From the NCBI GenBank assembly GCA_958510825.1, contig OY294044.1, positions 40,832,791 through 40,896,790 of the forward strand: DNA of 64,000 nt, in the 5' to 3' direction. The position numbers and the translations under genes were made by a program. The stretch comes from Brachypterus glaber (lineage: Eukaryota; Arthropoda; Insecta; Coleoptera; Kateretidae). The notes beneath the pieces are model-generated. The model worked only from the letters and a program-made list of their open reading frames with translations. It had not been told where the DNA came from and did no database searches. This document shows positions 1,029 through 50,521 of this stretch, piece by piece. Numbering within the stretch: position 1 is the first letter of the stretch; each line of letters starts with the position of its first letter.

Positions 1029-1234
1029 AGTTTCGGGATTGGATTTTCCAATTAACTTTTTAAAAACAAATACAGGAGACTTTATTGAAAAAGGTACAAT
1101 CATTTTAATTATATCAAGTCTACAAACAACAAAGATCTAATTTCAAAAAGCGTTTTACATATATTTATAAACTGGTTAGATCTTACTAAGCAGAAATATA
1201 ATAAGGGCTAACTAGGTGTTCCAGGCATGTAACT
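1029..1234 (-). repeat. 3' LTR of the errantivirus
   Basis: 206 bp, nearly the same as 9135-9331. On the minus strand it begins AGTTACATGCC and ends with GAAACT. A 9-bp GAAATATAA stretch is present here but absent from the other LTR. An AATAAA lies within it on the minus strand and could serve polyadenylation. Confidence 0.93.
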
Positions 1235-1244
1235 CCTCCCTTCT
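1235..1244 (-). promoter_or_regulatory. Polypurine tract (plus-strand primer)
   Basis: On the minus strand AGAAGGGAGG directly abuts the 3' LTR start AGTTAC. Position and composition are those of a retroviral PPT. Confidence 0.85.
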
Positions 1245-2137
1245 CAGTTGAGAACTTCGGGCTGTGACTGGAGTTCGATGTCAAACACTCCAGGTTTTCT
1301 TTCTTCTTTCTTTAAATTCTTCTTCCTGTAGATTTTTCTTATGTGTAGAGTTATTCCAACAGCTACTGCAATTGCCAAAAATATGTATAGAATTACTGTG
1401 TAACCACTGGTCTGATGAAAACTTATTGGTTCGATTTGATTTATTTCTTCTTCTTTATTTTGTAGTATTGTTTGTATATTGTTTAATTCTTCCAGGTCGA
1501 TGTTTTTCAGCTTGAACGGTTGTATTTTTGGTAAGTTAGTCATTGGTGGCTTTTGATTTATATTTATCATTGGAAAATCAAATTGTTTAAATTTACTATT
1601 GTTATTTTGGTATGTTTTTAAAACGAAGTTGTTGACGTGAACCTCACATTTATTGTTTAGTTCTATAATGTAGCTTCCACTTAAGGGTACATAATTTTTG
1701 TCGTTTTTACATATTTGTATTGCAACAGTCCTTTCGGGAACGATGACGATCCATTCATTTCTTTCGATTTTTTGGATGTTGATTTCTTGAAGGGTAACTG
1801 GTATTTGTTGGCAGTTGGAAATGTTGTAAATATGTTTTAAGACTTGTAGCTCACAAGGAGTATCGATTGATTTTGCTGTATTGAATTCTTGGCATAAATA
1901 TTCTTCAGGGGTTATTTCTTGGCATTTTTCGTTGGTAAGTGCGTAGGATTTTTCATTGTTTAAAAGGTATTTGGAGTTAGGAATAATTGTTTTAAAAGAC
2001 TTTATTGCAGGAGTAGGAAATGGATGAATTTTATAGTAAACATAACTTTCTACCTCTACTATTGGTATCTCCAACATAAAAATTATTTTATTTAACTTTG
2101 AATAGCTCTTAATTTGCATTATTTTTTCATATAACAA
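1244..2137 (-). pseudogene. env: env, C-terminal part (fragment)
   Basis: A 297-residue open stretch forming the membrane-proximal part of the envelope glycoprotein. Near its C-terminus is a hydrophobic segment (YTVILYIFLAIAVAVGITL, about residues 246-264) followed by a basic cytoplasmic tail (RKIYRKKNLKK). This is a typical transmembrane anchor and tail. The ectodomain part is Asn/Ile-rich with scattered cysteines. It is cut off from the upstream env part by a stop and frame change around 2140-2248. The C-terminus runs up to the polypurine tract, as expected for env. I infer its identity from position, the membrane anchor and the upstream fusion-peptide part. Confidence 0.8.
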
Positions 2138-2248
2138 ATTATTTTGTAAATTTGGATTAAAAGGTAGTTTGTTATTAAGTAACTGTTTGTGCGCTGACTG
2201 TAATTCTAATATCAGATCTTCTGGTTCGATAATTGAATTATGAAAAGG

Positions 2249-2719
2249 TTAAATTTTTGAGAATGAAATGGCTACTTCAATATTTTCTAGAGTATTAGAG
2301 ATAATTTGAAAGGTAGTGATTATTTGTGAAAGTACCATGAATATAATTGTAAATTGCCGTGACTCTGTGTTTATTAAATGTGTAGTATTAATGATTTTCT
2401 CTATTTCAGTTATTCTTGATTGCATAATTTTCTGGTTATGAGCTAAAGATTTTGTACTATTTTTAAATTTTTCAATGGAGTTTTGAAATAAGGTTATCTG
2501 ATCTTTAAACAAAGTTTTAATTTTAAATTGATTATTCGAAAGGGTCGTTATTGCTTCATCGTATTTTTGAGCATCCGTTTGGTCAAGATTACCGGTTATT
2601 GATTTAATTATTGAGCCTAAACCATCGATTATACCTCGTTTATTTTTGTTTATATCATAACTTTGAGGGTTTATTTGCGTTAATTGAGTGGTAATTTTGT
2701 GTATTAGATTATCTCCCAA
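2249..2719 (-). pseudogene. env: env, fusion-subunit N-terminal part (fragment)
   Basis: A 156-residue segment with the hallmark of errantiviral/baculoviral-F-type envelopes: a basic cleavage site followed by a glycine-containing fusion peptide (NKNKRGIIDGLGSIIKSITG), then heptad-like helices. The same frame is open upstream to about 2986, where it reads a hydrophobic signal-like stretch (LVQCFFIFTIAEY) overlapping the last codons of integrase. That overlap fits an env made from a spliced mRNA, the rule in this group. The shown start is a non-ATG codon inside the longer frame. A stop after SFSKI ends it early. Confidence 0.85.
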
Positions 2720-2928
2720 GTGGTATGTATTGTAAAATTCTAAATCGTAGTGAAAGCTGTTTTGTAAGCTCTGATTTTTAAGTGTATTTTTGATTTGATG
2801 ATATGTTTGTTTAAGTGTTTTAAATTGGTCGTAAATATCGTTTATGTCATAAATCTGAACAAATGTCCAGTGGTCGTTGTATATTTGTGCATTTCCTAAC
2901 TTGATCGGTAGAAGCCCTGGGTTATCAT

Positions 2929-4026
2929 TTAGGTTGTGGTATTTGGGATATTCTGCGATGGTGAAGATGAAGAAGCATTGGACAAGTCTGTAACAAGGGG
3001 TCTTTTTAATTCTTTAATATGTATAATTTCTTCCTTACTATTGTTAATATTTTTAATTTTTACTTTATTATTTTCCAGAAGTTCAAGTTCTTTATAGGGT
3101 CCTGTAAATTTGTTTTCTTTTTTATTTCTTTCGTTGGTATATTTATAAACTATATTGTCTAACTGAAAGTCCACTTGATCTGGACCTTTAGTATTTATTT
3201 TTTTTATTATTTTTTCTTTTAGTTCTTTATTTTTCTCCGCAACTGTGTAGTAATTAGCAGTCAAAAGTTCAGAGGGGTCACGTGAGTCCGTATGTCCGTA
3301 AACTAATTCATAAGGGGTAAATTTCGTCGAGGAATGTATCGTACTATTGTATGCTATTATTGCGTAATTTATAAGGGTTAAATATGGGTCCTGGGGGTGT
3401 TTAATCTTTAGGAGCCTTAAGTGTTCAATTAATGTGGAATGAAGACCTTCCACTGGAGAATTTGACTCACGATGCCCTGTAGTTCCAAAATGTATTTTAA
3501 TATTGTGCATTTTTAGAATATCTTTTACGGTTTCGTTTTTAAATTCAGTTCCGGGGTCACTAACAATTTTTGAAGGTATTCCGCAACATGAAAAGAAATT
3601 TATTAGTGCATTACACGTTTCAGTTGCCAATGTACTACCTATGGGTATTGCTTGTGCAAATTTAGAAAATTTATCAAAGATAGTTAAGTATTTTTGTTTA
3701 TCGAAAGTGAAGGTGTCCATGTGTATTATTTCAAAGGGTTTAGATGGGGTTTCTGTTAAAACAATAGGGGTGTAATGGGGAGTTCTTGAGTATTTTGCTA
3801 TTTGACACGTGTCACAATGATTAATGTAGTCCGTTACGTCGTCTTTCATTTTTGGCCAATAATAATTTCGTTTTAGTTTTTCAAGAGTTTCGTTAATGCC
3901 TCTATGATTGCTTTTTCCTTCATGCTGGTATTTGATTATTAAATTTTGGTCTTCTTTATCGCGTACTGTATTTACTATTTTACTGCAATTTACTAATTTT
4001 AATCCGCTCCTATAGAAGTTTTCCAT
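2929..4026 (-). pseudogene. pol: pol: integrase domain (open, all catalytic residues present)
   Basis: 365 residues, the best preserved piece of pol. An HHCC zinc finger is made by H35, H41, C71 and C74, followed by an RNase H-fold core with D104 (HMDTF), D157 (VSDPGTEF) and E193 (ESNSPVEG). There are 35 residues between the last two, so a standard D,D35E triad. The C-terminal part, rich in Lys and Ile, is the host-DNA-binding region and overlaps the start of env in another frame. A single TAG at 4033-4035, in the same frame, separates it from the upstream linker. In the living element it was therefore part of one Pol polyprotein. Integrase joins LTR ends to host DNA in the nucleus. Confidence 0.93.
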
Positions 4027-4032
4027 GTAAAC

Positions 4033-4389
4033 CTAGTTAAAATTTTTATATTGTTCGCTGTCAAAGAAATATAGGTAAAATGTGTAACCGGTTGCTGTAT
4101 ATTTTTTCAAAAATTCAATTACTAAATTTTCGTTATGTTTGGGGATTTTAAGTAGCAATATTTTTAAGTGTTGGAAATGATCGAATTTGACTTCTAAGTC
4201 ATTATGTACATTAGGGGAAATATAAACTTGATGGGATTTGTTATTTATTATGTCGTCCAAAATTGGTATACCTTCATTTAAAGTGTTAGAATTGTGAGAG
4301 TGGGATGTTTCTATAGAGTCAAGGGGTGGTCTAATTTGTATATCCTGTAGAATTTTGATCTTAGGTTTTGGTTTCTTCGAGTTTCTCAA
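4033..4389 (-). pseudogene. pol: pol: linker between macrodomain and integrase
   Basis: 118 residues in the same frame as the integrase. It is acidic and Ser/Asn-rich at first (residues 10-60), then has a more ordered Leu/Ile/Phe-rich end (EFLKKYTATGYTFYLYFFD). I recall a comparable Leu/Phe-rich stretch just before the zinc finger in other errantiviruses, but did not check this. It overlaps the macrodomain frame by 29 bp, which marks a frameshift near 4361-4389. No enzyme motif is visible. Confidence 0.65.
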
Positions 4390-4927
4390 TTATTTCATTA
4401 ATTTTTTCATTTAAGCGGTTTTCTGGGCTAAGTTCTGCGTCGAGAAATTTGTGAATGTCAATGTCAATGTCACCTGGGTTATTTATTACTGATTCGTTTT
4501 CTATAGCATGGCATTGTAAGTCTGGTTCTGTGTCGTAAATTTTAACTATTATGTTACTGTCTTGAAAAACTGCTTTTATTATGTGGAACACTGTAGTCCA
4601 GTTAAGTTTGTCTAGTCCGCAGGCAATTTTTGGCATTAATATAGTTTTTATATTTAATTTTAAAAGAAGTAATTTAAGATTTTGTAATTTTTGATATACT
4701 GTTTTATAGGATGGTTTTTCATAATAGTTTTCTTTGGCTATCAAATAAAATATTCTTTTGTTATTAAATTTTATGTGTCCGACTTCACCTAATTTTTTAT
4801 GTTGAATTTTAAATTTTTTTACTGAACCGAATTTATTTTTAAACTGCAGAGCGATTCCTTTATTCATTACATTACAAACATTTTTATTTTTAATTTCGAC
4901 TTTTTTATTTACGATTTCTTCTAACAA
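4361..4927 (-). pseudogene. pol: TARG1/OARD1-like macrodomain (ADP-ribose hydrolase)
   Basis: 188 residues; the frame is open upstream to about 4969, right after the RNase H end. Residues 22-132 follow the OARD1/TARG1 macrodomain pattern in order: NKGIALQFKNKFGSV (23-36), KLGEVGHIKF (45-54), RIFYLIAKENYYEKPSY (58-74), a Leu/Lys helix, then TILMPKIACGLDKLNW (95-110) and IIVKIYD (126-132). TARG1 uses a Lys and an Asp as its catalytic pair; the matching residues here are K65 and D106. Family members remove ADP-ribose from acidic residues and from DNA. The nucleotide-binding loop before GIA looks shorter than in cellular TARG1. Residues 133-188 are an acidic extension. The domain lies in a different frame from both neighbours, so indels have hit on each side. 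I judged similarity by eye against the remembered family pattern, with no profile search. Confidence 0.82.
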
Positions 4928-4949
4928 GTTTTGATTTGAATTTTGCTGG

Positions 4950-5606
4950 TCAGTAAAGTTTATTTTGATGCGGATAAAGCGTCTGCATTACTATTATATT
5001 TGCCTTTTTATATATTATGTCATAGTCAAACTCTTCTAGTCTTAGTCGCCAACGTACCAATTTTGAGTTTGGTTCTTTTAAATTGAAAAGCCAGGTTAAT
5101 GGTCTGTGGTCTGTGTATATAGTAAATTTACGACCGTAAATGTATGGCCTAAAGTATTTGGACGCCCAAACTATTGCAAGACATTCTCTTTCAATAGTTG
5201 AGTACTTACACTCAGACTCGTTGAGAGTCCTAGAGGCATAAGCTATAGGTCGGTCGTTAGGTAGGTTGCCTTGAGAAAGTACAGCCCCTAAAGCAAAGCT
5301 GCTAGAGTCTGTAGTTAAAATAAAAGGCTTTTCGAAGTCGGGATATTGTAGTAGGGGGTGGTTAGTTAGAATCTGTTTACAGGTATCAAAACATTGTATG
5401 AATTCTGGGGTATGTTCGATTTTTTGGTCCGTTTTGAGACATTTTGTCATAGGTTTGGTAAGTTTAGCAAAATCAGGGATGAAACGTCTGTAGTAGCCCA
5501 AAAGTCCAAGAAAAGATATTATTTCTTTTTGACTTTTTGGAATAGGAAATTTTTTGATGGCGGATACCTTATTTGGGTTAGGTTTCACGCCTTCGGGGGT
5601 TATCAC
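4950..5606 (-). pseudogene. pol: pol: RT thumb/connection and RNase H
   Basis: 218 residues. Residues 1-60 are the RT thumb (GVKPNPNKVSAI, FLGLLGYYRRFIPDFA). Residues 95-200 are the Ty3/gypsy RNase H, with D100 (TTDSSSFALGAVLSQG), E141 (IERECLAIVW) and D166 (YTDHRPLTWLF) as metal-binding residues. The usual C-terminal NADAL motif is present at 4975-4989 but in a neighbouring frame, showing a frameshift just before it. RNase H degrades the RNA strand during reverse transcription. The frame matches the RT core upstream, interrupted by a stop near 5655. Confidence 0.92.
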
Positions 5607-5654
5607 ATGACCTAAGTACTGAACGGTTTTTTGGAGAAATTCGGACTTATCTAA

Positions 5655-6056
5655 TTAAATTTTTAAATTACTGTCCCTAAGCCTATTGAAAACTTGTTTA
5701 AGTCGTTCAATGTGCTTTTCTAGGGAAGTGCTAAATATGATGATATCGTCCAGATAAACTAGACAAATTTCATTTTGTAAACCCGGCAATATGTTATTCA
5801 TTACTCTCTGAAAGGTGCTCGGAGCATTAATAAGTCCAAAGGGCATACGCAAGAATTCAAAATAACCTTCGTCGGTAGAAAATGCCGTTTTTTCGACATC
5901 TTCTGGATCGACTTCAATTTGGTGAAAACCTGATGCTAAGTCAATAACTGTAAAATACATTGCTTTTCCTAATTTGTCTAAAAGTTCAGTTATATTGGGA
6001 AGTGGAAATTTATCTGCAATTGTTTGGTCGTTTAACTTTCTATGACCATTCTCCAT
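5655..6056 (-). pseudogene. pol: pol: reverse transcriptase palm/fingers
   Basis: 133 residues covering RT motifs: [16 protein letters not shown], the first catalytic Asp (D39 in [13 protein letters not shown]), [14 protein letters not shown] (73-86) and the active-site box YLDD (101-104). Length and order match Ty3/gypsy RT. The N-terminal fingers lie at 6057-6233 in disturbed frames (for example a recognisable SYRYPQIHKQE reading). It is in the same frame as the RNase H piece. RT copies genomic RNA to DNA in the particle. Confidence 0.93.
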
Positions 6057-6233
6057 TTTTTACATCCAGAAGCGCCTTTTTACCAACTATCCAAATTGGA
6101 CTAGAAAATGGAATAACACTTGGCTGAAAGATATTTTGGTCTAACATTTTATTAATTTGGGTTTTTACTTCCTGTTTATGGATTTGGGGATACCTATACG
6201 ATTTAACGAAAATTGGGGAATCTGATTTTAACC

Positions 6234-7106
6234 TTATTTTATGTTTAATTTTGTTTGTAAAGCTAAGGGGGATCCGTCACATTGAAATATGTCTCTGTGT
6301 TCGTAACATAATTTTTCGATAGCGTCTTTTTCTTGTTTATTTAAATGATCAAGTCTAAGTTTGCTTAAGTTTTGTTTTAATTTTTTGTCGTCCTCTTTTG
6401 ACTTTTTGCTGTATTTATATTCATTTAAATCATCTATAAAATTACTGTTTACTATATCGATTGTTTCTACTTCTAAAGGCTTATTATTATTAAAGTTTAT
6501 ACTTATTTCACTGGAGTTTAAAATTGTTGTTGTTGCAAAGTAATTTTCTATAGTTACTAATGCAGAAGGCATCATGACTTCATCAGAAAATTTTGTGTGA
6601 GGCACAATGCCTACACCTTCCTTGATATTTACTGGTATTTTTGTGAGTTTATTCATTCTAGGTTTTAGTTTTATAGTAAACGTTTCAAAATTATTATTTT
6701 CTTTACAAGTATTTTTATTTGTATTTTGGTATGTAAAAGGAATTCTTGAGTACGGTGAAACTATACATTTTAAATTAAAGTCTATATTTGCACCTATTTT
6801 ATTTAAAAGACCAACTCCAGTTAAACCATCGTATTTATCGCAAAATTTAAATAAGTAAAATTTATTAGTATCTTTAAAGTTAAAATCATCAAAAAGAGGA
6901 ATACAAATTACTTCGTTATGAAAGCTCGTATCGTGGGCAGTTTGTATATTAAAATTTTCGTTAAAAATAAATTTTTTGTAAAATTTATATGCCAATGAAG
7001 GGTTCATTAAACTTTTAGTACTGCCAGTATCAATCAAAAAGTTTGCTTTAAGTTTGGGGATATATATAAAAGGCAAATCAGATTTAATTGTATTAACACA
7101 AATCAT
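6234..7106 (-). pseudogene. pol: pol: aspartic protease and start of RT
   Basis: 290 residues. A retropepsin active site LIDTGSTKSLMN has its catalytic Asp at residue 26 (DTG 26-28). The remaining protease and spacer runs to about residue 230. The end (LNKQEKDAIEKLCYEHRDIFQCDGSPL) is the usual lead-in to gypsy RT. The frame ends at a stop at 6234 before the RT fingers. The protease cuts Gag and Pol during particle maturation. Confidence 0.9.
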
Positions 7107-7155
7107 CTCTGTGTTTTTGTTGATTGGTCCATGGGAAAATTTAAATTTTTTGAAT

Positions 7156-7908
7156 CTAAGTTGTCTGTCTGTTCGATATCTTGGGGGTTTTGATCGTTGT
7201 TTGGATTGTTTTGTTCGTCAGGGGTTTCTTTTTGAGACGTTCCTGCATATTGTTCGTACTGGTTAGATTCGTAAAAGTGATTTGGGTCACAATATTGGTT
7301 CGGGTCATAACATTCGTTGGGGTCATAATATTGATTAACATATGGATCGATATCAGGGTAATCTTCTTAAGACATGTAGTTTAATTTCGTGTTGACAGAG
7401 TCTACTTCCATCGGTGTGGGTCTATAACTATTTTTTGTACGTTGACTAAAAGCGTTTCTATTATTAAAGTAATTTGGAGAACCAAATGATACTGTGTAAC
7501 TAAAAAAATAAATAAATAAATAAAGGGTCGCATATTTTGATTGAAAGAGTTAAAGGGTCTATTAAAAACGTTTGCTTGTGGTCGTGGTGTCTGTCCAAAA
7601 TTATTTTGAAAACGTTGAGGCTGGCTAAACGTATTCGAAAAGTTTGGTCTGGAGAAAGATTGTTGAGCAAAATTAGGTTGTGGAGAAAAATTTGGTGTTT
7701 GAGCAAAAAAGGATGGTCGTGAAAATTGTGGTAGTGGTGGTCTATAAAATGGTTGTATTTGCGGTCTCGTTTGATTTGGTTGTAATCTAGATAGCGGTTG
7801 GTAATATGGTTGTAAATTTTGAGCGTTAGACTTATTTTGTGCGTAAATAAAATTCTCTTCTTCAATAACTAAGCTCATGGCTTTTTCTAAAGTGTCTGGG
7901 TTTCTCAA
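7156..7908 (-). pseudogene. gag: gag, C-terminal half (broken)
   Basis: From about 7908 to 7525 one frame reads a Gln/Pro/Phe/Asn-rich, low-complexity nucleocapsid-like region with repeated SRPNF/QPN motifs and no CCHC zinc knuckle, as in many errantiviruses. An (AATA)n run at 7503-7523 breaks this frame. Downstream in another frame are a PMEVDS-type motif near 7390-7415 and a Tyr/Asp/Asn-repeat tail (CDPNQYYDPN-like units), which I take as the Gag C-terminus. Gag would form the particle shell and bind RNA. Confidence 0.75.
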
Positions 7909-8140
7909 GCGTATGTTATTTTCTAATTGGCCGGAAAGTCCTCTAATAAAGGTAGTTCATCGTAATTGTTTACATGTAAGGCCTTCTGTTCTGGGGTATA
8001 ATCGATTGACGATTTTAATTTGGAAATTACCAACGATCGGCAATCTTGACACCTGATTCCAAAATTGTATCATTTTTATTTGGTCGAAGTCCAATGAGGT
8101 CTTGGACCAAACAGTCAATGTTTCTTTGATCGGAAAAATT

Positions 8141-8181
8141 TAATTTTAATTTAATTTAATTTAATTTAATTTAATTTAATG
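8141..8181. repeat. (TTTAA)n microsatellite inside gag
   Basis: Eight or so AATTT units interrupt the Gag coding frame; the sequence on both sides is Gag-like in different frames. Confidence 0.9.
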
Positions 8182-8554
8182 TTAAAGATTCTTTAATTCT
8201 AGTCCATGAAGTCATATCGGTTCGTGAACCGATTAAAATCATAGCTCTACCGGATAATTTTGAGATAACTGAACGGACAAGAAAATCGTTAATTGAGTCA
8301 TTTGGAGTCTGTGGTTTGGCAAATTTTAAAATTAAGTTTTCGCAATTATCGATAAAAATGTTGAGAGTATGTGGGTCACCCTCATATTTGGGAATGGTGT
8401 CCAGGTAGAATTTTAAAAGTTGTAAATCGGACTGTGCCATTGTTTGGTTATTAGCTTGATTATTTGGGTTCAAATTAACAGTCCTATTTCTATATTCTAA
8501 ATTTATGTTACTAAGCCTATCTAAAATTTCGTCGAGTTCGTCAGAGTCGGTCAT
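8171..8554 (-). pseudogene. gag: gag, N-terminal part (fragment)
   Basis: 127 residues starting with ATG at 8554, about 570 bp after the PBS. This is the expected place for Gag to start after the untranslated leader. It has an acidic Asn-rich N-terminus, then FYLDTIPKYEGDPHTLNIFIDNCE, resembling the capsid start of gypsy-type Gag proteins (a helix with a F-dxxP-xY-xG-d pattern). The frame runs into a (TTTAA)n microsatellite and stops. The middle of Gag (7909-8140) is recognisable only in shifted frames. Confidence 0.78.
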
Positions 8555-9120
8555 AAAAATTTAAATTGTGAATAATTTTTCTCAGTGTATATGTATTTTA
8601 CTAGTTTTAATTTTTAATTGAATTAAACACTCGCAAAATAGGTAAACGTGATTTTTTAATATTACTAAACTAGATAAAGCGACGTTGTTCGTTCGAGTTT
8701 ATCTTACGCCTACGCGTACACGATAACGGACGGTGACCGTGTGCTAAGTGTACTAAGTACTTTTTATGTTTAAAATGTTTCTTAATTGTAAATCTTATTT
8801 AAATAACATTTAATTTTTATGCTGCAAAAACTCAAAAGAAAAGTAGAATTTCATACTATAAAGTGAATAATAATAATGAAGGAAGCACTTACATATATAT
8901 TCTCATCTTAATCTTATACAGCTTAAAAAGTCCTCTGCTGGTTCTGGTTTTGGCGATGTGTGTCCTCTACCAGTCTGGTTTTGGCGATTTTTGTCCTCCA
9001 CCAGTTACTGTTTTTGCTTTTTACTTCGCAATTGTTTTTCCACCCACTATTCACTGTCTTTTTAGGTTCGTTCGCGAATTAATCGTTAACACGAAAAGTT
9101 TTTCACGCTTTTCACGATCC
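8555..9120 (-). other. Errantivirus untranslated leader
   Basis: Sequence between the primer-binding site and the gag start. No long frame on the minus strand. It would hold the splice donor for env mRNA and packaging signals, but I cannot point to either. Confidence 0.6.
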
Positions 9121-9135
9121 GTTACGACTGCGCCA
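9121..9135 (-). promoter_or_regulatory. Primer-binding site, tRNA-Ser-like
   Basis: On the minus strand TGGCGCAGTCGTAAC follows the 5' LTR directly. It matches the TGGCGCAGTCG start of the tRNA-Ser primer site known from 17.6/297-type errantiviruses. Confidence 0.88.
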
Positions 9136-9331
9136 GTTTCAGGATTGGATTTTCCAATTAACTTTTTAAAAACAAATACAGGATACTTTATTGAAAAAGG
9201 TACAATAATTTTAATTATATCAAGTCTACAAACAACAAAGATCTAATGTTAAAAAGCGGTTTACATATATTTATAAACTTGTTAGATCTTACTAAGCATA
9301 AGGGCTAATTAGGTGTTCCAGGCATGTAACT
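9135..9331 (-). repeat. 5' LTR of the errantivirus
   Basis: 197 bp, AGT...ACT termini, matching 1029-1234 with 8 substitutions and one 9-bp deletion. CATT follows at 9332-9335 as the target duplication. Confidence 0.93.
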
Positions 9332-9335
9332 CATT

Positions 9336-14193: not shown

Positions 14194-14531
14194 AATGTTA
14201 TGCAATACAAAAAAATCCAAATGCTTCAGTGAAAATCGTACTTCGTTACATACAGCCTGTTCCAGAACTCGCGTACCGAAATTTGAGGGTATATTAAAAA
14301 CCCTCTGGAAAATATGAAAAAAAAATCAAAAAAAATCCATCTTCGTTCAATTCAAAAATAAGAACGCTTTAAGTGGACCAATACTGTTGCTGATTATAAA
14401 TTACCATTAAAGGTTGAATTTGTAGCTATGGAAGCAAATTTAATTATTGCAGGTACATATTCTGTAGGTTGACATGATGATTAATGTGACATAAATATTT
14501 ATTAATGTCATAAAAAAATATCAAAACTTTC

Positions 14532-15665
14532 ATGATGTTTACTTCAGAAGAGTATTGCGAAATGCTAATTTTATATGGCGAGTGTGGCCGGAGTGCTTCA
14601 GCTACATCTGTAGAATATTCTATTCGTTTTCCCAATAGAGAATATCCTAGCAGAAATGTTATTTTAAGTTTGGTGCAAAGGGCAAGAAATTCTGGAAATT
14701 TAACTCCAAACAAAAAAGAGATTGGAGGCGCTCCGCGAACGGCAAGAACGGTTGATAATGAAGAAGCTGTCATTCAGGCTTCTGAAGAAGAACCTGAAAC
14801 AAGCCTTAGTATCGTGGCTAGAAATCTTGATATGTCTAAGACCTCTGTTCAACGAATTCTAAAAGATGAAAAAATGCATCCCTTTCATTACACTCGAGTA
14901 CAATGCTTGACACCGGAGGACTATCCCTTACGAGTCGAATTTTGCACATGGCTGTTGCAGAAACATCAAGAAAATGAAAACTTTGTAAAAATCATTCTTT
15001 TTACGGATGAGTCTGGGTTTCAAAGAGATGGTTTTTTTAATTCAAGGAATTCTCATGTTTGGGGACAGGAAAATCCCCATGCCTTCAGGCAAGGAAATCC
15101 CCAACGAAGGTTTTCCTTGAATATTTGGGCCGGAATATTGGGAGAGGCTATAGTAAGTTATTTTGAGAAATAAACCACCATAAAATGCTTAAAATATTTG
15201 TTTTTAGGTTGGACCCCATGAGTTTCCTGGCAGATTGAATGGCGAAACTACACTAACTTCTTAAGGGATGAAGTGGAAAATCTTATTGATGACATCCCAC
15301 TTCAAAGGTTGGCAAATGTGGATAACATCTGGTTTCAACATGATGGCTGTCCAGTGCATTTCTCAGAAACGGCAAGAAGCCAACTCGACATCAGTTTTCC
15401 AAACAGTTGGGTAGGCCGTGGGGGTCCCAGAAGGTGGCCTCCTAGATCCCCTGATCTCACTCCAATGGACTTCTTTTTATGGGGCCATGTAAAAAATTTA
15501 GTGTATAGAAATATGCCAGACACTGTAGAAGAACTAGGAGACCGAATACATGAAACGCTTGAGTCAGTAACTCCAAATATGATTATTAATGCCAGGAGAA
15601 GTCTGTTAAAAAGAGCTGCTTTATGTGTTCAAGTTGGTGGAGGTCATTTTGAACATATTCTTTAG
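14532..15665 (+). pseudogene. Mariner-like transposase, intron-containing, one frameshift
   Basis: Exon 1 is 14532-15152 (207 codons), then a 55-bp intron (GTAAGT...TTTTTAG, 15153-15207), then exon 2 from 15208 to the stop at 15665. The protein has an N-terminal helix-turn-helix region (EEYCEMLILYGECGRSASAT, residues 6-25), a second helix-turn-helix (TSLSIVARNLDMSKTSVQRIL, about 90-110) and an IS630/Tc1/mariner DDE-fold core. The core has D in LFTDESGF, D in FQHDGCPVHF and D in PRSPDLTPMDFFLWG, with 36 residues between the last two. One base is missing near 15247-15250, giving a stop at 15262; the reading continues one frame over from 15273. The enzyme would cut and paste at TA sites. The source element is probably intact elsewhere in the genome. 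Confidence 0.9.
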
Positions 15666-15942: not shown

Positions 15943-16637
15943 TTTTCGGAACACCGATAAAAAATTTTCCTATATTCATTACTTTGAAATAAATAAATAA
16001 AATTCAGTTATTGTATTTTTATTTTAATAATTTGTATTAAGAATTTATAGCCAGTAAATCAATTAAAAGATCTAGGTTTCTAATAAAAAAAAACACTACA
16101 TTCAGCGCGCTGAATGGAGTTGCAGCGGCAGTTTGTTGCTGCCGTCTAAGACGGGTATCATAAAACCACCGCCGGATGGAGTGACCCCATAAAAATAGAA
16201 TATTTGATAGCCCTGTCGGTTTTGTCAAAATATAATAACCTAAAAAGATTCTAAAGTTGAAAGTCTTAAACAATGCACGAGTCAACCATTAAAATGCAAC
16301 CATAGTTACTAATAAGTAGGGAAAAACTAATTTTTAGGTAATTTAACATCAGCAACAGGATTGGTCAGATTAAATAGCTACCTTTTTAATTAGTATTGAA
16401 GATGGATTTTTTTAAAATTTTTTTCATATTTTCCAGAGGGTTTTTAATATACCCTCAAATTTCGGTACGCGAGTTCTGGAACAGGCTGTATATAGCGCCA
16501 AATTTAAAAAATTTATAGTATACTTGGAAATACTATAGAACGAAACTAAAATCTTTGCATATTTTGGTATATTATTTGATTTTCTGACCAAATATATGAT
16601 TAAGATTAAACATTTTAAATCATACATATCTATCATA

Positions 16638-24110: not shown

Positions 24111-24740
24111 AATATATTTACATTGATTTACATATTTTTACATGATTTTACAATGTCGGGCTATGTTATTTTAAGACGCGCGTGCGCTTTGGACAATAAC
24201 CAAGAAGGCGTCGCATGAGATGGACCGTTTTATATTGTCATGTTAGAGAGATAACGACGCATGCTGCTAGGTTAAAGTGTTAGAAGTGTAAAAAAAGGTA
24301 AATATTATTTAAGTACGATATTTAAATGCTTTATTTGTGGCCTAAAATTTACATTCATTATAAATTACGATCTTTATCAACGAATAGATCTTTAAAGAAA
24401 GATGTAAGCAGTTTATACTCGTATTAAGGGTGCAAATCGTTTGGTTTATTAAACCAAATGAACTTTACGCTACGTCATTTTAAAAAAGCTTTGACACAGA
24501 GACTTGTAATTTGGAACAAACATTTTCTAAGTAGTAAATATTTTTTTTTTGAAGTTCAAGTCTCTATGTCAAAGCGTTCTTGAAATATCGTAGTGTTTAA
24601 GTTGTTTTAAAGGCACTTTTAATATGACTGTATGTTAATTTTTTAAAAAATTATTAAACACATCATAAGTATTGTAGGCAAATATAAAAAAAATCCTTCG
24701 AGCTGATCCTTTTTTTAAGTTTGTTTTTATAATAAAAAGT

Positions 24741-24979
24741 CTATGCAAAATATTACCATTCTGGACTATGTAATTTTTAGCGTTCCGGTCTATGCAAAAT
24801 ATTACCATTCTGGACTATGTAATTTTTACCGTTCCGGTCTATGCAAAATATTACCATTATGGACTATGTAATTTTTACTGTTCCGGTCTATGCAAAACAT
24901 TACCATTACGGACTATGTAATTTTTACCATTCCGGTCTATGGCAACATATTACCATTTACGGACTATGTAATTTAATGT
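24741..24979. repeat. 49-bp minisatellite, five units
   Basis: CTATGCAAAATATTACCATT...GTAATTTTTACCGTTCCGGT repeats at 24741, 24790, 24839, 24888 and 24937 with a constant 49-bp period. The last unit is the most diverged. Confidence 0.95.
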
Positions 24980-25071
24980 AATTTATTTTTACCGTGTGCC
25001 CAAAAACAGTAAATAAAAGATACCCACATACACTAACTTGCCTTTAAACATTATATAAACTATTAACCACT

Positions 25072-34344: not shown

Positions 34345-35516
34345 ATAGGGTGTATTTGAAATAGGGTAGGAAATTTTAACAGGTGATTCTACATGATAAA
34401 ATATGACAAAAAGTTCCATATGTCTAAAAATGCGTCATAAGGGAGCTACGCCTCTTTGAAATTGGCTAAAAAAATCGGTTTTTATTTAATAACTCAGGAA
34501 CCCTTTGAGATATATTAACGAGGTTTTGCACGTGAATTAACCCTAATAAGGCCCATCTTTGTATGTCATTTTCACGTACTTATTTAAACCAGGGGTGTGC
34601 GAAACGGGGGGGCCTTATTAGTTTTTTGTCCCAAACTTTTTTCTGTGTAACTTTTTTTTAATTTTACTTTTGAAATATGATTCCTCAGGTCAAAATACAT
34701 AAAAAAGGTACTCTTGTTGTAATACTGTAGGATTAACCGTTTTCGAGAAAAGTTCATTTGAAGGTGAAATTTCACGGTTCGAAGACGAAAAATTAAATAC
34801 TAAAATGTCGAAAACCAAAATTTTAATGATGCAATGTTATTCTACATCAAAAACTAAGAAAAAAAGTTTCCATACATGTAGGTCGAAAAAACGCTTTTAA
34901 AGCTACCATAGCCCTTTAAAAATGGTGCATATTTAGGAGACCATAGCTCCATTAGGATTGATTTTTGGAAGTACCTGTATATGAGGTTTTTTTCTTAGTT
35001 TTTAATGTACATTCGCCCTGCATCATTAAAATTTTGGTTTTCAACATTTTAGTATTTAATTTTTCGTCCCCCAACCGTGGAATTTCACCTTCAAATGAAT
35101 TTTTCTCGAAAACGGTTAATCCTACAGTATTACAACAAGAGTACCTTTTTTATGTATTTTGACCTGAGGAATCATATTTCAAAAATAAAATTGCAAAAAA
35201 GTTACACAGAAAAAAGTTTGGGACAAAAAACTGATAAGCCCCCCCCGTTTCGCACACCCCTGGTTGAAATAAGTACATGAAAAAACACATAAAAACGGGC
35301 CTTGGTAGGATTAGTTGACTTGCAAAACCTCGTTGATATATCTCAAAGGGTTCCTGAGTTATTAAATAAAAACCGATTTTTTTAGCCACTTTCAAAGGGG
35401 CGTAGCTCCCTTATGACGCATTTTTAGACATATGTTTATAGGAACTTTTTGTCATATTTTATGATGTAGAATCATCTGTTAAAATTTCCTACGCGATTTC
35501 AAATACACCGTGTATA
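34345..35516. mobile_element. Foldback element, 1.17 kb, about 545-bp arms
   Basis: TATAGGGTGTATTTGAAAT at the left and ATTTCAAATACACCGTGTATA at the right. The arms pair nearly throughout (CATAAGGGAGCTACGCCTCT; TGTGCGAAACGGGGGGGCC; AATCCTACAGTATTACAACA), leaving a loop of under 100 bp. No gene; frames inside are hairpin shadows. Confidence 0.9.
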
Positions 35517-45644: not shown

Positions 45645-47490
45645 TATACCTCTAATAGACCAGGCGGTATCCGTTATAAAACACCCATGTTTGGGTAAAT
45701 CGTATACCATTCTATATTTTTGGATGAATGGGTCCAGAATATCACTAAAAATGATAATTTCACTATGCGCATAAAATCAACCCTGTGCGTAACTTTTTAT
45801 ATAACAAAATGTTGCAAAATCGAGAAAAATTTCATGTTTTTTCTCCTTTTCGTGCATATATCTCTGGAACTGTTCTTTTCAGACAAATATTGAAAAGGAA
45901 AAAAAGTTTTGCAATTGAATTTTATGTATAATGAAATTGGTTGCAAATCGAAAAAATAATAATTATTATTGAAAAAATAGTAAAAATCACAAAAAATCAC
46001 AAAACACGTATAGAAGAGAGCTTAAGCTTTCAAATGATGTTTAAAAAATTAAAATCCGTTAATTAGGAGAGCCTACGCAGCTGTTTAAACATTGGCCGAA
46101 TTTTTGCGCTTATAAACAATTAGAATAACTTTATGAATTTTAGATAAATTTGTTTTTTTTATATATATTGAAAGTACCTAAAAATACACTTCCTTAAAAA
46201 AAAAATATTTGATGATTCGTTCATTAGTTTCGAAGTTATGCAAGTTATACAAGGGCATAAGGGCTGTTTTTTCGACAAGTACCTTTGTTATTCCGAGTAC
46301 TTACCAGACATTAATTTGCAATACTTACGATCATGTACGACCTTGTTAATTAAAAAAACTCAAGTTCGCGTGAAATCGACGAAAAGTGTAGGAGAGGTTG
46401 CTCCGTCCGACTAGAAATTGAAATCGCGAGTTCTAATAGCAACAAAAAGAAGATATCGATTAGCAGTTTTTTCATATCGTTTCTTATTGTAATTTAATAG
46501 TTCTTTTATAAATAAGTTAATTATTATTATATGTTATTAATTAAGCACTTTTAAAAAAATGTATTTCAAATAAAAGCCTTTTTTAAGCCCTATAAAAATG
46601 CTATATACAGTTTTTTTTTGCGTCAGGTGTCCATCTCTCGCTAGGTTTCAGTTTCAGTGCAAATGGCGGTTAAATTTGAACGATCATAACTTCGAAACTA
46701 ATGAACGAATCATCATATTTTTTTATTAAGAAAGCATCTTTTCGAGTACTTTCAATATATATATATATTAAAAAAAGAACAAATTCATTGAAAATTCATA
46801 AAGGTATTCTAAGCGCAACAATTCGATAAATGTTTAAACAAGTGCCTAGGCTCTCCTAATTAACGGATTTTAATTTTTCGAAAATTATTTGAAAGTTTGA
46901 ACTCTCTTCTATATGTGTTTAAATTCAAGTATCTAAAGGCTTTATGTTCAATTTTGTATGATTTTGAAAATTTTAATTTTTTTTTATCCGGATTGAAAAT
47001 TATTGTGCAAAAACTATCAGACCGATTTTGATGAAATTTGGTGTGATGATTAAGCACACCATAAAGTTTTTTTGTGCCAATTTTGAAGGTCCTAAGTATA
47101 CTTTAAGTATCCGGAAAAAAATCCCAAAAAAACTCGATTTTTCTAACCCTTTTTTGTAATATTTACTATTTTTTTAATAATAATATTTTTTCGATTTGCA
47201 ACCAATTTCATTATATATAAAATTCAATTGCAAAACTTTTTTTCCTTTTCAATATTTGTCTGAAATAAACAGTTCCAGAGATATATGCACGAAAAGGAGA
47301 AAAGACATGAAATTTTTCTCAATTTTGCAACATTTTGTTATATAAAAAGTTACGCACAGGGTTGATTTTATGCGCATAGTGAAATTATCATTTTTCGTGA
47401 TATTTTGGACCCATTCATCCAAAAATATCGAATGGTATACGATTCACCCATCTCAAAACAGATACCGCCTGGTCTATAATAACAAATCCA
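45645..47490. mobile_element. Foldback element, 1.85 kb
   Basis: Arms 45645-46262 and about 46680-47490 pair along their length: GACCAGGCGGTATC, TATGCGCATAAAATCAACCC, TCGTGCATATATCTCTGGAAC, AATCCGTTAATTAGGAGAGCC, CATTAGTTTCGAAGTTATG. The right arm has an extra 190 bp or so around 46930-47150. The loop 46263-46680 has no gene. Confidence 0.88.
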
Positions 47491-49491: not shown

Positions 49492-50521
49492 GACCAGGGT
49501 CGATAATTTTTGAAACCAAAAAAAATAATAGTAGGATGAAATCCGTTAAAAAAGGATGAGAATATAACAAAAATTAAAGGAAAAATAATTTACGGGCGAT
49601 CTGAGGTCGGGAAGTGGAAGGGGGTGAGTTTTTAAGGGTAAAAAACGGTGTATCTCGATTTCCGGCAAAACTACAAGTCCTGTGGAAAAAAATTAAATAA
49701 CAAAGTTGTAGGTAATAAAGAGACCTACAACTTTTGTAATTACACTTTTTTCACATAACCTCAAAATTTATGTGAAAAATTCAAATAATAGTTTTTGGTT
49801 TGGACTTTTTATCTTATGCAAAAATTTTTTGTTTTTCAGGAAATTTGGTTTGGACTTACCTTTTTATGTCATAAAGACACTGTAATTTTTTTGATTTGAA
49901 ATATTTATTTTTTCACCTTATTTTGACTTAATATCGAAAAAACACCCTAATTTTCAATTGAAAATTCTCGCGTCAAAATATCAGCTTTTTTTTGTTCGTC
50001 GAAATCTCTTCTTTCTGATAATGTAAAAAAATATATACATTACTATGGTAAATGTTCTCAGAAAATGCAAAGAAAAGAAAAAAACTCGAATCCGAAATTT
50101 TTTTTTTTAATCACTATGTACAATTTTGAGCTATTTAGTAAAATTTACACTTTGATTACTTGAAAAAAGTAAGATTCTATGTTACATTGAAAAAGTCCAA
50201 ACCAAAAACTTGATTATTGGAATTTTTCACATAAATTTTGAGGTTATGTGAAAAAAGTGTAATTACAAAAATTGTAGGTCTCTTTATTACCTACAACTTT
50301 GTCATTTATTTTTTTTCCATAGGACTTGTAGTTTTGCCGGAAATCGAGATACACCGTTTTTTACCCTTAAAAACTCACCCCCTTCCACTTCCCGACCTCA
50401 GATCGCCCGTAAATTATTTTTCCTTTCATTTTTGTTATATTCTCGTCCTTTTTTAACGGGTTTCATCCTACTATATTTTTTTTTTCACTTTTTACCATTT
50501 TCAAAATTATCGACCCTGGTC
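49492..50521. mobile_element. Foldback element, 1.03 kb, TA-flanked
   Basis: GACCAGGGTCGATAATTTT and inverse AAAATTATCGACCCTGGTC, with TA at 49490-49491 and 50522-50523. Arms of about 320 bp include GGTCGGGAAGTGGAAGGGG, GGCAAAACTACAAGTCCT and GAGACCTACAA. Frames inside are shadows of the arms. Confidence 0.9.

Follow-up and report, generated by a model that had tools for sequence, protein, structure and literature searches.

The window, meaning the whole stretch of 64,000 nucleotides analysed here (contig OY294044.1 of the beetle Brachypterus glaber), contained a decayed long terminal repeat (LTR) element on the minus strand at 1029-9331, with CATT on both sides (1025-1028 and 9332-9335). The limits of the element were taken from the alignment of its LTRs and from the flanks. 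A minus-strand open reading frame (ORF) of 208 amino acids at 4361-4987, identified from the ORF list, Pfam and phmmer, coded for a TARG1-like macrodomain and lay within the pol region. Its position between RNase H and integrase, proposed in a preliminary description of this DNA, was borne out by the flanking Pfam domains.

Alignment of the two LTRs with each other (5' LTR, 197 bp, 9135-9331; 3' LTR, 206 bp, 1029-1234; both on the minus strand) gave 189 identical positions, with 8 mismatches and 9 gap positions. A purine tract, GAGAAGGGAGG, stood ahead of the 3' LTR on the minus strand, and GGCGCAGTCG followed the 5' LTR, where a primer binding site would be expected; it may resemble a tRNA-Ser primer binding site. 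All coding pieces were also on the minus strand. The gag region (7402-8560) had broken frames with ORFs that included 8560-8171 and 7956-7402, the latter with a weak Ty3_capsid match below the cut-off. The start of pol was an ORF at 6234-7217 with a weak aspartic protease match (E 0.012, below the cut-off), followed by a reverse transcriptase piece (RVT_1, 5655-6059, E 1.7e-29), a piece with the reverse transcriptase end and RNase H (4950-5654, RT_RNaseH E 2.8e-40), the macrodomain ORF, a linker piece towards the integrase (4033-4389) that gave no Pfam family above the cut-off and no macro match in the Pfam scan, and an integrase piece (2929-4032, H2C2 zinc finger E 3.7e-18, rve core E 4.9e-9). 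The env gene was of the Baculo_F type, in two ORFs parted by a stop (1244-3013, E 2.2e-8 and 3.7e-18). The LTRs, gag, pol and Baculo_F-type env, with gag and protease matches that are weak and below the cut-off, supported an errantivirus-like (Metaviridae), env-bearing element of the Ty3/gypsy type, in agreement with the preliminary description. This copy is dead, because its reading frames are broken at several places, and would have no activity.

The peptides quoted in the preliminary description were all present in the 208-residue ORF. The motif NADAL, given there as the end of RNase H, was found at 4975-4989 as stated, in a frame used neither by the RNase H ORF nor by the macrodomain ORF. 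The macrodomain stretch, put there at roughly 190 residues, was shorter, with only about 112 residues (ORF residues 41-152, window 4532-4867 in the phmmer alignment) recognisable as TARG1; the remainder of the ORF was linker and decayed N-terminus. The TARG1-type identity held, with a phmmer E-value of 1.1e-21 to human TARG1 (C6orf130), and the Macro profile search proposed earlier (PF01661) gave E 2.2e-5 and 24.8 bits against a cut-off of 22, which places the domain in the macrodomain superfamily. The NCBIfam DarG model matched with E 1.5e-13 and 50.7 bits, under its cut-off of 250. The closest solved relative was TARG1, well above other macrodomains. In the alignment columns, the Lys/Asp pair numbered earlier as K65 and D106 corresponded to ORF residues K85 (codon at 4733-4735) and D126 (codon at 4610-4612), aligned with TARG1 K84 and D125. 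The window copy had no GDLF/HCVS part of the active site and so lacked the N-terminal motif of the TARG1/OARD1 class. The profile and phmmer scores exclude chance as the source of the TARG1 match. In an additional control, the letters of the 54.6 kb flank were shuffled 20 times; the longest ORFs that resulted had 97-145 amino acids, compared with 208 for the macrodomain ORF, and the longest ORF of the real flank was transposase-like and had 219 amino acids.

Eight further proteins carried a macrodomain after RNase H, three of them from two named beetle species, and the nearest of these Pols to the window element was P0003 (RNase H 63% identical). The case that the match is confined to this one copy, which the preliminary description had named as counting against it, therefore does not apply. 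A chance match, or a piece of a host OARD1 gene inserted once into a dead element that has no use for it, would fit the broken state of the window copy and its missing N-terminal motif; it was rejected on the TARG1 E-value and on the eight other proteins, and we give it next to no probability.

The catalytic Lys and Asp were retained in all ten domains, nine of which differed from each other at pairwise identities of 32-77%. The [AG]HCVS motif was present in 9/9 aligned relatives, as GHCVS in P0002 and P0007, so that the N-terminal HCxS motif belongs to the family and is missing from the window copy. A GDLF-type loop also occurred in relatives. The predicted fold of the P0002 domain superposed on TARG1 over 141 residues, with 45% identity to the human protein; this model agrees with TARG1 in its fold and in the Lys84/Asp125 pair. 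For the 36 pairs formed by the window element and eight Pols, mean identity was 46% for the macrodomain and 56% for RNase H, and over 15 pairs that included the integrase and left out the window it was 59% for RNase H, 46% for the macrodomain and 37% for the integrase. In pair identity, the macrodomain lies between RNase H and the integrase; a functionless module would be expected to drift beyond both neighbours. For P0005, a Leptinotarsa gene model named 'tropomodulin isoform X2' fused tropomodulin with an element Pol that has a macrodomain and an integrase; this may be an error of gene prediction.

The Harmonia Pol P0002 contained an intact macrodomain at 455-566 and, at about 642-733 directly before the integrase, a second, degenerate TARG1-like stretch. 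This stretch scored 29.7 bits with a profile of eight other domains, and in 15 comparisons with shuffles its score was higher by 6-12 standard deviations; the five other post-macrodomain stretches among the six tested gave no score. It has a Lys and is without the CGLD motif that holds the catalytic Asp, which suggests that a non-catalytic version can persist. That would suit a domain acting as a reader of ADP-ribose, for example on PARP-marked DNA damage, or as a structural spacer that merely joins RNase H to integrase, with catalysis irrelevant in either role. Neither role would need both catalytic residues, and their retention in all ten domains speaks against such a function, which we regard as quite unlikely.

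A tree of 30 rows was built from 3 of the 4 viral rows, 4 of the 8 bacterial rows, 12 rows from the 120 OARD1-type ones listed and 11 element-type domains (the ten and P0115). The 11 element-type domains formed one clade (98/96) adjoining metazoan OARD1 and separate from the phage and bacterial relatives. With those phage and bacterial rows as the root, the element domains grouped with metazoan OARD1, with a weak joining branch (70/84), and on this grouping descent from phage or bacterial relatives was rejected. No insect was among the named organisms in the 120 listed of 1485 OARD1-type matches. The domain may have been taken up from the cell, as the preliminary description proposed, and perhaps from an insect host, whose OARD1 was absent from the tree set. 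TARG1-like proteins were also carried by four viral contigs (L001-L004), which are probably phages, with standalone proteins at 4971-5402 of L001 (143 amino acids, 131 kb contig) and 4914-5330 of L002 (138 amino acids, 52 kb contig), and by eight bacterial loci (L005-L012; Ruminococcus, Clostridia, Alistipes). Viral contigs scanned with the macrodomain, RNase H and integrase pieces of the window, and with an alignment of RNase H, yielded no relative.

Among the eight compared, the intact macrodomain of P0002 had its closest counterpart in P0003 (59.5%), which likewise comes from Harmonia, whereas its integrase was 44-47% identical to those of P0007-P0009 against 25% to P0003. In P0115, a fragment of 237 amino acids, the module followed the integrase, with an integrase C-terminal SH3 domain and then a TARG1-like macrodomain that grouped with P0004 and P0005 (95/86). 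The patterns of P0002 and P0115 hint at domain exchange between elements and are leads, not proof.

TARG1 removes ADP-ribose from acidic residues, and both TARG1 and DarG remove it from thymidine in DNA. A Pol-borne copy is thus best read as keeping Pol, Gag or complementary DNA (cDNA) unmodified, and the TARG1-family macrodomain in the Pol of these Ty3/gypsy-type elements is, on balance, probably an ADP-ribose hydrolase that rids the machinery of reverse transcription and integration of ADP-ribose added by the host. The macrodomain would be made and packaged as part of Pol, alongside reverse transcriptase and integrase, and would act within the particle or the incoming complex and not in the producer cell. 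As the substrate, one would expect ADP-ribose attached to acidic side chains in Gag or Pol, or to single-stranded cDNA. Similar domains in several arthropod-associated viruses were counted in favour of host ADP-ribosylation pressure. According to PMC7712786, eight mobile elements were differentially expressed in Drosophila without PARP-1, and five of these were raised, springer of the gypsy clade the most; ten more elements, nine of them gypsy-superfamily LTR elements, were raised without passing the false discovery rate cut.

Several observations weigh against this reading. Pfam Macro missed P0001, P0002, P0003, P0005 and P0007 or scored them under its cut-off, and only P0008 and P0009 passed, although the fold model of the relatives is clear. 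Strict co-inheritance of RNase H and the macrodomain was not shown, because their identities were uncorrelated over pairs (Spearman 0.15, p 0.39) and because P0006 was placed differently in the two trees: the RNase H tree split P0004-P0006 from the rest (100/100), while the macrodomain tree kept P0004 and P0005 together with P0006 elsewhere (82/64). A core-only macrodomain tree left most element branches unresolved. In the same Drosophila work (PMC7712786), the other three of the eight elements were lowered, the ten further elements missed the false discovery rate cut, and the authors allow for an indirect effect of PARP-1. According to PMC10221186, insects are without most of the PARPs of vertebrates, which also qualifies the counter-PARP role suggested in the preliminary description, and macrodomain catalysis is absent from insect-specific alphaviruses.

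The main rival is an active hydrolase with a DNA target, which, while reverse transcription is under way, would strip ADP-ribose from the cDNA or the cDNA ends without any host defence being involved. The scarcity of PARPs in insects (PMC10221186) would suit it, as would the location of the domain between a DNA-making and a DNA-inserting enzyme and the finding that DarG comes second to TARG1 among the relatives, both by profile and by fold. However, the likeness to DarG was far weaker than that to TARG1 (9.8e-9 against 4.6e-51), and TARG1 works on proteins too; we consider this rival unlikely, if less so than a reader or spacer. Returning to protection from host ADP-ribose, a broader version can be offered tentatively, as possible and short of probable: several beetle Ty3/gypsy lineages may share one Pol-borne, catalytically intact TARG1 clade that has moved between elements, because insects use ADP-ribosylation of the incoming complex or cDNA as an undescribed defence.

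No report of an insect LTR element with a macrodomain in its Pol was found in the open-licence PubMed Central literature, as judged from search listings that were partly incomplete; the word 'macro' was absent from the text of PMC12992720, and PMC4038475 contained none of the four terms looked for in it. Macrodomains in viruses are commonly taken as a sign that hosts use ADP-ribose against them. If the proposed function is true, reverse-transcribing elements would be under the same ADP-ribose pressure, here in animals for which most vertebrate PARPs are reported missing, and one more enzyme would join the known Pol modules. A small domain would then make the question directly testable.

Elsewhere in the window, two transposase-like ORFs (14514-15665, plus strand) lay between inverted repeats at 14244-14334 and 16407-16497; the first had a DUF4817 helix-turn-helix (E 2e-14) and the second no Pfam match. 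A 49-bp unit formed a tandem array at 24690-24983. Long inverted repeats, 87-96% complementary, were found at 34417-35434, 45692-47450 and 49518-50484 and are perhaps small palindromic transposons.

Compared with known systems, the domain resembles TARG1 (OARD1, C6orf130) in its fold with the 141-residue superposition, in Lys84/Asp125, and in the GDLF-type loop and [AG]HCVS of the relatives; it differs in being fused into the Pol of LTR elements and, in the window copy, in having no N-terminal motif. A macrodomain in an LTR retroelement is also described for fish epsilon-like endogenous retroviruses, but there, in vertebrate elements, the macro domain proteins are reported to be encoded by extra ORFs (Basta 2009, as cited in PMC4977317). 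The viral macrodomains of alphaviruses, coronaviruses and rubella, and of arthropod-associated reo-, iridescent, virga- and flavi-like viruses, share a macro fold in a viral protein, with 34-43% identity to the P0002 domain in Kadipiro and iridescent virus, but their bearers are not reverse-transcribing elements, and the alphavirus rows listed were 11-14% identical. The DarG antitoxin shares the macro fold, at 18-22% identity, and belongs to a bacterial toxin-antitoxin system. Some lentiviruses carry a dUTPase in Pol, likewise an accessory enzyme at the RNase H/integrase junction, which differs from the macrodomain in fold and chemistry.
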